Below are positions 25,223 through 27,823 of a DNA stretch of 44,988 nucleotides, piece after piece. This DNA is from Bacteroidota bacterium (GTDB taxonomy: Bacteria; Bacteroidota; Bacteroidia; Flavobacteriales_D; Sanyastnellaceae). Each line of letters begins with the position of its first letter. The stretch's first letter is position 1. Made by a program: the position numbers and the translations under genes. The stretch spans positions 1 to 44,988 of the forward strand of contig JAQCJQ010000006.1 of assembly GCA_027593035.1 (NCBI GenBank), written 5' to 3'. The notes under the pieces were generated by a model that worked only from the letters and a program-made list of their open reading frames with translations, was not told where the DNA came from and did not search any database.

Positions 25223-27721
25223 TTATTCAAACAAATCCTCATCATCAAATCCCTCCCCTCCAAAAGTCGCCTGCTGCAATTCATGCAATTGCCTGCAATC
25301 CAGCGAGTCCATGCCCATTCCCTCCGGACGAACAAAGTCCGCTGTGCTCAAGCCAATGGCCGGATTGGCATACGCTGCCTTCATGTAGTAACCATAAATC
25401 GGCAAAGCTGTATTGGCTCCCTGACCATTGGCGATGGTGCTAAATCGGACCGTTGGGTCTTGCGCGCCCACCCACACTCCGGTCACCAAATCAGGCGTCA
25501 TCCCCATGAACCAACCGTCGGTATGGTTTTGGGTGGTCCCTGTTTTTCCCGCCATCGGAACTTTGATGCCGTCGTATTTGCGCCGTTCCAAATCCATGCG
25601 CAATCGGACGCCCGTGCCTTTGCGCTGGCCTGTTTCTGGATTGTACGCTCCGTCCACAACACCTTTCATCATGTCCACAATGGTATAGGCCGTGCGCTCA
25701 TCCAACCCCTGCCGCATTTCGAGTTCAGGAGTCCAAATGACATTGCCATATTTGTCTTCAATGCGCGCAATGATGGTCGGGGTAATGTGCACGCCACCAT
25801 TGACCAACGCCGCATTGGCCACCGTGATTTCTTTGAGTGTCAACTGCGAAGACCCCAAGGCAATGGAGGGCACCGCTGGGATTTCACTCTCAATTCCTAG
25901 CGCATGCGCCAATTGAATGACTCGTTCTGGGCCAAAGTCCTTGATCAGCTTGGCAGAAATGGTGTTCATGGAATTGGCCAAGGCGTATTCCAGATTGACC
26001 ACTTCACCGTATTTAAAATCCGAATTGTCCGGACACCAATCCGGTTGGTCTCCAGGCATCTCGACACAAATTCGTTGGTTGGGCAACTCCGAGCAACGCG
26101 ACATGCCATGACGCAGCGCCGTGGCATAAACAAACGGCTTGAAGATCGACCCGACTTGTCGACGGGATTGGGAGACGTTGTCGTACTTGAAAAACCGATA
26201 GTCAATGCCTCCGACCCACGCCTTGATGTGACCCGTTCTTGGCTCAATGGACATCAGTCCTGCGTGGAGCAAGCTCTTGTGGTATAGGATAGAGTCCAGG
26301 GGGGTGAGCGTCGTGTCGCGCGGTCCCTGATGACTGAACACCTTCATGTTCACGGGCGCACGGAATAGCTGGTCGATTTCCTTTTTACTTGGTCGATGCC
26401 AGGTGTGGCTGCAGCCTCCTTTTTCGGCATCGCAAACCCAGGTGTCGCCTGACTCATCGGAGCTCTTATCAATGTAAAATCCGGGGCGTTCGCATTCAGG
26501 GCATTCCTTGCCTGCATACTTCAAATAGCGCTTGCTCCGCTTGATAGCGGAATTGATGATGTTCTCTCGATCGGACCGCTCAATCCCCTCGTAAAACGGC
26601 CATTCTGATGAACTGCGGGACCGCAGATCGCGATTCAGGGTGGCCTGCAATTCTCCGCCCAAATGCTCATGGACGGCTTCTTCAGCCGCTTTCTGAAGTC
26701 GGCTATCAATGGTCGTGTGCACTTGAATGCCATCCCGGTACAAGTCGTAAGGCGACCCGTCGGCTTGATGGATGACCCAATCTCCAGTAGGGTCCTTTTT
26801 ACTCAACAACGTTTTCAATTCAGCGCGCAGAATCTCGCGGAAATAAGGAGCCGGTCCCGCATCGTGACTCACCCGCTGATAACTCAGCCCCAAAGGAAGC
26901 GCTTGCAACGAGTCGACTTCTTCCTTGGTTAGGAGGTCATATCGCGCCATTTGATTGAACACGACATTCCGGCGATTCTGCACCGATTCAGGCCGTCGCA
27001 AAGGATTGTACAGCGAACTGTTTTTGAGCATCCCGACCAACATCGCCGCTTCGTGCAGCTTCAGCTCCTCAACGTTCTTGTCGAAATAGATGTTGGCCGC
27101 TGACTTGATGCCCACCGCTTGGTTCAGGAAGTCATACCGATTCAAGTACAGCGCAATGATCTCACCCTTGGTATAAAATCGCTCCAAGCGTGCAGCAATG
27201 ATCCACTCCTTGGGTTTTTGCAAAAACGCCCGTTCCAACCAAGACGTTCGGTCGTATTGATCCGTGAACAGCTGCTTGGCCAATTGCTGAGTTACCGTGC
27301 TGCCGCCGCCGCGTTGACCGAGGTAAACAATTGCCCGAGTCAAACCAATGAAATCAATTCCACTGTGGCTTTCAAATCGCGCATCTTCGGTGCTGACCAG
27401 CGCGTCAACGAGGGCCTGAGGCAGCTCATCGTAACGAGCATCCGCCCGGTTTTCAGAATAGTATCGTCCAATAACCCGTCCATCGGATGAATAAACACGG
27501 GTGGCCAATTCTGTTTTGGGGTTGGCCAACGTTTCCGTGTTCGGTAGATCCCGAAAAGAAGCGAGCACGACCAATCCAGTGATTCCAAGCAAAGGAGCCA
27601 GACCAAACAGCCACATCCAGGCGCGTTGCCGGGGGTGCTTTTTAGCGCTCTTCTTAGCCGACGCAGTCGACTTGGGCTTGGGGGCCAATCGGGGTGATGC
27701 TTTGCGTTGTGTTTTCGCCAT
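25223..27721 (-). CDS. Class A penicillin-binding protein (PBP1A) with Cys4 insert
   Basis: An 832-residue bifunctional peptidoglycan synthase. The ATG at 27721 is preferred over earlier starts because it gives a short basic cytoplasmic tail and one membrane helix (about 35-55). The glycosyltransferase domain (about 75-250) has STEDARFESHSGID and GGGSTVTQQLAKQLF; the transpeptidase has Ser525/Lys528 in GSIFKPF and the KTGTTQNHTDGW motif. Between them residues 407-437 hold CPEC, then C-x6-C, a zinc-ribbon-like arrangement with nearby His, unusual for a periplasmic enzyme. By family it polymerises glycan strands and crosslinks stem peptides. It lies divergent from rseP across 126 bases and upstream of scoAB. 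Confidence 0.93.
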   Translation of the reverse strand: MAKTQRKASPRLAPKPKSTASAKKSAKKHPRQRAWMWLFGLAPLLGITGLVVLASFRDLPNTETLANPKTELATRVYSSDGRVIGRYYSENRADARYDELPQALVDALVSTEDARFESHSGIDFIGLTRAIVYLGQRGGGSTVTQQLAKQLFTDQYDRTSWLERAFLQKPKEWIIAARLERFYTKGEIIALYLNRYDFLNQAVGIKSAANIYFDKNVEELKLHEAAMLVGMLKNSSLYNPLRRPESVQNRRNVVFNQMARYDLLTKEEVDSLQALPLGLSYQRVSHDAGPAPYFREILRAELKTLLSKKDPTGDWVIHQADGSPYDLYRDGIQVHTTIDSRLQKAAEEAVHEHLGGELQATLNRDLRSRSSSEWPFYEGIERSDRENIINSAIKRSKRYLKYAGKECPECERPGFYIDKSSDESGDTWVCDAEKGGCSHTWHRPSKKEIDQLFRAPVNMKVFSHQGPRDTTLTPLDSILYHKSLLHAGLMSIEPRTGHIKAWVGGIDYRFFKYDNVSQSRRQVGSIFKPFVYATALRHGMSRCSELPNQRICVEMPGDQPDWCPDNSDFKYGEVVNLEYALANSMNTISAKLIKDFGPERVIQLAHALGIESEIPAVPSIALGSSQLTLKEITVANAALVNGGVHITPTIIARIEDKYGNVIWTPELEMRQGLDERTAYTIVDMMKGVVDGAYNPETGQRKGTGVRLRMDLERRKYDGIKVPMAGKTGTTQNHTDGWFMGMTPDLVTGVWVGAQDPTVRFSTIANGQGANTALPIYGYYMKAAYANPAIGLSTADFVRPEGMGMDSLDCRQLHELQQATFGGEGFDDEDLFE

Positions 27722-27823
27722 TCCAATTGCAAGATTACTACATCCCCCGCATTGCGGCTTCATTCGAAGAAACCTTTCACGGATATTCACCATTCCCATG
27801 TACCCGACCTCTCAAATGCTCAC

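Follow-up and report, generated by a model that had tools for sequence, protein, structure and literature searches.

Why should a cell-wall synthase of the periplasm carry four cysteines arranged as in a zinc ribbon, and what might they hold there? The question arises from a penicillin-binding protein (PBP) encoded in a 44,988-nucleotide stretch of a Bacteroidota genome (the window). An earlier note, drawn from the sequence alone, had described a Cys4 insert between the glycosyltransferase (GT) and transpeptidase (TP) domains of this PBP1A. The insert lies where it was placed: positions 26387-26521 are exactly residues 427-471, and the note's own residue numbers, 407-437, give the region from Cys433 to Cys463 once counting starts at Met27. 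The two motifs it had read, CPEC and C-x6-C, are formed by Cys433, Cys436, Cys456 and Cys463, and the nearby histidines it mentioned are present as His465 and His468, just after the last cysteine. Met27 is also an alternative start of the protein, and the first 26 codons of the reading frame (27722-27799), with a CGGC motif made up by Cys17 and Cys20, are perhaps untranslated. The gene of an M50 protease starts divergently near this 5' end.

The protein has the architecture of a class A PBP, namely a GT51 domain followed by a TP domain, both behind a single N-terminal membrane helix (Table 1). The columns of the SxxK, SxN and KTG motifs are invariant or nearly so in an alignment of 51 rows, which consists of the window protein and 50 of 64 Cys-bearing loci after removal of near-duplicates, fragments and L077, a sequence that contains an X. 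A Pfam search of PBP1A at E-values up to 1 returned Transgly and Transpeptidase only; PF17092, which we take to be the PBP1A OB domain, was not among the matches. The best of 15 NCBIfam models is TIGR02074 (PBP_1a_fam); the score of 454.2 bits falls short of the model's cut-off (508.75), and this may apply to the whole lineage and not to the window protein alone. A domain search found PBP1A to be the sole GT51 match within its own genome. Enzymes with GT51 and TP domains are extracytoplasmic. Because the predicted membrane helix follows a Lys/Arg-rich N-terminus, as sequence and the established topology of PBPs would have it, the remainder of the protein, insert included, should be periplasmic.

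Table 1 Features of the PBP1A gene and its product in the window. Residues are numbered from the first in-frame ATG.
Feature	Position in window	Strand	Basis
PBP1A, class A penicillin-binding protein, 858 aa	25223..27799	minus	ORF from first in-frame ATG (27799)
Met27, alternative PBP1A start	27721	minus	In-frame ATG
Predicted membrane helix, residues 63-81	27557..27613	minus	Helix 2-20 of model (model residue + 61)
GT51 glycosyltransferase domain (Pfam Transgly), residues 107-284	26948..27481	minus	Pfam match
Cys4 ribbon insert, about residues 431-470, tip of helical hairpin between GT51 and TP	26390..26509	minus	Alignments; model strands 36-41, 44-49, 59-61
Cys433 (putative ligand 1)	26501..26503	minus	Invariant, 58/58 rows
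Cys436 (putative ligand 2)	26492..26494	minus	Invariant, 58/58 rows
Cys456 (putative ligand 3)	26432..26434	minus	Invariant, 58/58 rows; missing in L046, which was outside that alignment
Cys463 (putative ligand 4)	26411..26413	minus	In 69/73 insert-bearing rows
Transpeptidase (TP) domain (Pfam Transpeptidase), residues 518-770	25490..26248	minus	Pfam match; SIFK (SxxK), SMN (SxN), KTG present
Cys578 and Cys589, TP domain, disulfide-type pair, internal control	26033..26068	minus	Both 76, neither 180, single 0 of 256

How widespread is the insert, and how old? We compared 257 distinct PBP1A sequences, that is 260 rows minus L185, L186 and L209, which duplicate another row or form part of one (L105, a further duplicate, had been dropped earlier). 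The insert is found in 73 of them and is missing from 184. In 145 of the latter, two helices are joined by a turn of 12 residues at the place where the window protein has 49, so the Cys4 module would measure about 37 residues and cap a helical hairpin at its tip.

PBP1A matches were obtained in all 60 genomes of relatives that were scanned. The earlier note had made its case depend on conservation in close relatives, and this is what we observe: all four cysteines are there in each of the 22 genomes read from the genus, the window's among them, and in all 15 others of the family. The order supplied 23 further genomes. Judged by the best copy, the insert is present in 17 of these (four cysteines in 13, three in three and two in one) and absent from five; G048 was not read. 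In a scan of the class, it was detected in the best-matching copy of 13 of the 76 genomes having a PBP1A match, a set that includes G000, G025 and G044 from the window's own order. Outside the class the scan covered 61 genomes of the phylum, and none of the 30 that were read at this point contains the insert. The best 80 by similarity of a larger number of named public loci include ten with the insert, all of them from metagenome-assembled genomes labelled Flavobacteriales or Bacteroidota; it is absent from the remaining 70, which include Flavobacterium, Prevotella and other named isolates. When the trait is placed on a tree of 180 rows, for which the insert columns were excluded, it requires 6 changes; 50 label shuffles needed 53 on average and never fewer than 45. 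This pattern marks the insert as an old module that was passed on mainly by vertical inheritance, with a few gains or losses, and it resides in some branches of one Bacteroidota class. An insert-bearing and an insert-less PBP1A are present together in at least seven members of the order (G038, G039, G045, G049, G050, G056 and G057).

All four cysteines are complete in 69 of the 73 insert-bearing sequences, so that two Cys pairs are conserved together, as in zinc ribbons, and the insert is usually present or absent as a unit. An alignment of inserts, comprising 58 of 63 rows, shows Cys1, Cys2 and Cys3 to be invariant and Cys4 to be kept in at least 90% of the rows; L046 and L077 had already been excluded, and 'invariant' consequently leaves out L046 with its two cysteines. 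Since the mean column identity of these inserts is 41%, the conservation of the cysteines exceeds what chance would give. The spacing between Cys3 and Cys4 is more relaxed. In the 69 complete rows it amounts to 2 residues in 6 rows, 4 in 20, 6 in 42 and 9 in one, with the cysteines kept throughout. C-x4-C and C-x6-C are less usual as a second knuckle than CxxC, which counts against a zinc ribbon. Classical CxxC...CxxC members exist in L047, L049, L050, L054 and L055. Both the tolerance in spacing and these classical members fit the behaviour of a zinc ribbon. The histidines are less constant than the cysteines: a His two residues after Cys4 occurs in 47 of the 69 complete rows. The incomplete members are of two kinds. 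L046 has the first knuckle only, its whole second half being lost, a further point against the ribbon. In L048, L051 and L052 Cys4 is gone and Cys3 retained, and in each a His comes after 5 or 6 further residues; judged by position, it could be what remains of the usual His or else a replacement ligand.

What fold would such a module adopt? AlphaFold2 yielded a pLDDT of 87.2 for the whole protein (51 rows) and of 90.2 for the insert together with its hairpin (58 rows). In the second model, helices span positions 2-14, 16-22 and 65-73, and the insert is modelled as a three-stranded β ribbon (strands in Table 1), which answers the structure prediction proposed by the earlier note. Fold comparisons add a hint. 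With the whole model, a fold search had nothing but PBPs among the 50 matches listed, which is uninformative on the insert. With the insert alone Foldseek found no match at E ≤ 0.001, and the 50 matches listed mix zinc ribbons, WW domains, aerolysin and other non-zinc folds. VIA-align returned 32 rows for the insert with a best Z of 4.0, within the chance range; we take most of these rows to be zinc ribbons, among them initiation-factor chains, RPB9, TFIIB, RNase P and topoisomerase I. When PDB sequences were searched with the insert profile, 16 matches came up with E-values of 0.11-5.5, to be read in the light that a CxxC-containing profile favours zinc proteins; the matches are presumably zinc-binding proteins, for example uS14 type Z, RPC10, RPB9, GATA factors and topoisomerase I. 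For 34 insert members, the Pfam matches include DUF2387 ('probable metal-binding'), with E 4e-4 in the best member, and several zinc ribbons or fingers alongside unrelated families; no family was matched by more than one or two members. For the window's own insert stretch, Pfam returned nothing at E 5, and NCBIfam one sub-threshold domain at E 0.037. The indications of a zinc protein are weak one by one, but they lean in one direction.

The closest resemblance is to the zinc-ribbon group around eIF2-beta/eIF5, RPB9/RPC10, the N-terminus of TFIIB and the C-terminus of topoisomerase I, which shares with the insert model two Cys knuckles and a three-stranded β ribbon. Chains of this group head the insert's weak fold lists, with matches that are not significant. 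There are also clear differences: the members of the group are intracellular nucleic-acid or polymerase proteins, whereas the insert belongs to a periplasmic enzyme and its second knuckle varies from C-x2 to C-x9. Could the metal be another one? Four cysteines with a CPxC element also suit a mononuclear iron as in rubredoxin, but zinc proteins make up most of the fold and profile matches listed and no entry among them bears the name of a rubredoxin, a weak argument, and the setting offers no hint of a redox partner. We regard iron, or any metal in place of zinc, as very improbable.

A different possibility, raised already by the earlier note, is that no metal is bound at all. In the periplasm Cys433 could pair with Cys436 and Cys456 with Cys463, or the pairs could be crossed, forming a metal-free disulfide knot. 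The extracytoplasmic location is in favour of this, and so is the TP domain, which provides an internal control. Its cysteines (window 26033-26095 and 25295-25297) resemble two disulfides: Cys578 and Cys589 are strictly paired, as the counts in Table 1 attest, and Cys569 and Cys835 nearly so, with 214 rows having both, 12 a single one and 20 neither among rows without gaps. Such conserved pairs suggest that disulfides do form in PBP1A. The insert behaves in a somewhat different way. Cys456 or Cys463 stands single in 3 of the 72 rows having either, namely the three that lost Cys4 and kept Cys3, compared with 0 of 76 for Cys578 and Cys589; this speaks against a knot, but it is suggestive only, as the difference is not significant (Fisher p 0.11). 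Further points against it are the CxxC...CxxC forms in the family and the strain of CxxC as a structural disulfide. Neither DsbA nor DsbB nor VKOR had a match in the protein's own genome, which likewise argues against a knot, with the caveat that this genome is 93.6% complete and the absence therefore uncertain. VKOR was detected in 1 of 60 relatives and in 3 of 80 genomes of the class and is thus rare with or without the insert, so the absence of Dsb and VKOR is a background and explains nothing. For the same reason the oxidase content, as represented by VKOR, was rejected as an account of which genomes have the insert. Altogether, the knot appears unlikely and ranks below a zinc site.

A Cys4 zinc site is, to our mind, the most likely reading, and we hold it with good confidence from what the sequences offer. 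It can be extended to a more complete explanation, which we consider likely, of a structural zinc ribbon with an exposed interaction surface at the tip of the hairpin. The two knuckles, C-x2-C and C-x2..9-C, would clamp one metal ion, most likely Zn2+. The clamped metal would hold the three-stranded β ribbon on the tip of the hairpin that links the GT and TP domains. Its role would be purely structural, and the ribbon would present a rigid, exposed surface for interaction, possibly for docking.

Is zinc in a PBP without precedent, as the earlier note implied when it called the arrangement unexpected in a periplasmic wall synthase? The zinc-ribbon-like nature of the insert is supported by conservation and by the β-ribbon model, but the surprise has to be qualified. 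The class B enzymes PBP2, PBP3 and SpoVD of C. difficile (PMC9334274) and PBP2 of A. baumannii (PMC9974482) are reported to be zinc-binding serine PBPs, with the metal close to the active site and a Cys at the X of an SXN or SXD motif as one of its ligands. They resemble the window PBP1A, with its putative zinc, in that they are extracytoplasmic wall synthases whose zinc is held partly by Cys. In contrast, the window protein is of class A. Because the X of its SXN motif is Met (SMN), where the active-site zinc site has a Cys, and its four cysteines lie outside the TP domain, it is outside the group of active-site zinc PBPs. Among the papers listed in searches of the open-access literature, none described a class A PBP with a zinc ribbon, judged by titles and the starts of abstracts. 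Zinc in PBPs is known, then, and the Cys4-ribbon form is apparently new so far as these searches reach.

Might the metal also do more than support a fold? Thiolate zinc sites are oxidisable, and the Cys4 site could bind zinc under normal conditions and release it on oxidation or in zinc starvation, with wall synthesis being turned down as a result. For the class B zinc PBPs, a switch of this kind has already been put forward as a hypothesis (PMC9334274, PMC9974482). Against it, VKOR does not track the insert, and Cys1-3 are near-invariant across families, as they would be in a structural site. We therefore think a redox or zinc switch improbable and return to the structural ribbon.

What would a structural ribbon be for? 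Other class A PBPs offer a comparison of position. When the profile is aligned with the solved PBP1A chains 3udf, from A. baumannii, and 4oon, which we take to be PBP1A of P. aeruginosa, the match breaks off at position 316-319 and resumes at 447, leaving chain residues 282 to 387 (3udf) and 279 to 395 (4oon) in between. About 104 and 115 residues thus remain unaligned between the profile positions that flank the insert. Presumably, this gap is where the ODD of E. coli PBP1A lies. ODD is the outer membrane PBP1A docking domain, to which the outer-membrane lipoprotein LpoA binds (PMC3060616); both are reported there as limited to gamma-proteobacteria, and unrelated proteins are suggested to activate class A PBPs in other phyla. 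ODD and the Cys4 insert are alike in being extra modules of class A PBPs between GT51 and TP domains, as the gap in the alignment with 3udf and 4oon indicates. They differ in that the insert has Cys4, another predicted fold and a Bacteroidota host, and are comparable in place, not in descent. In the Pfam search at E up to 1, no similarity to ODD or to the PBP1A OB domain was found.

The same spot accommodates other modules. In 6 of the 184 insert-less rows (L084, L091, L092, L102, L109 and L127) Cys-free loops of 77-107 residues occupy the position of the insert, so this spot accepts modules repeatedly. The six loops are apparently helical or coiled-coil. Since the insert coincides with the gap in 3udf and 4oon and the spot has taken up modules several times, a docking module of PBP1A is our best guess at its function, a tentative one by analogy that may well prove wrong.

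If the ribbon docks, which partner could be recruited? The lipoprotein GldH (TIGR03511) was considered, since 12 of the 23 genomes of the order that fall outside the window's family (G037-G059; loci L190, L192, L073 and L076) encode it directly upstream of a PBP1A and in the same orientation. Such proximity suggests a functional link between GldH and PBP1A, perhaps an Lpo-like one. As a partner specific to the insert, GldH did not find support. It has matches in 60 of 60 relatives regardless of the insert (55 over the cut-off), it also adjoins insert-less copies in G038, in G046 and at the first of a tandem pair in G056, and within the window's own family, with 37 genomes covered, it neighbours no matched PBP1A. 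The locus in G056 (C11:21140-26820; L060 and L055) contains GldH, an insert-less PBP1A and an insert-bearing PBP1A in tandem.

One may speculate further, on a scenario that we hold to be unlikely as a whole. Some Bacteroidota would have evolved their own docking module of PBP1A, a periplasmic zinc ribbon at the position of ODD, which recruits a partner from the outer membrane or the elongasome and makes class A wall synthesis zinc-dependent; GldH would be a candidate member of the same complex.

The activation of class A PBPs has been worked out mainly in proteobacteria, with their Lpo proteins, and in some Gram-positives. The Cys4 ribbon, conserved and placed between the GT and TP domains, provides a concrete place to look for the control of these enzymes in Bacteroidota. 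The genomes that own both kinds of PBP1A, at least seven including the tandem of G056, are natural controls. If the zinc-ribbon reading is true, PBP1A of these bacteria would join the class B enzymes as another kind of zinc-dependent PBP, one that differs from them in structure.
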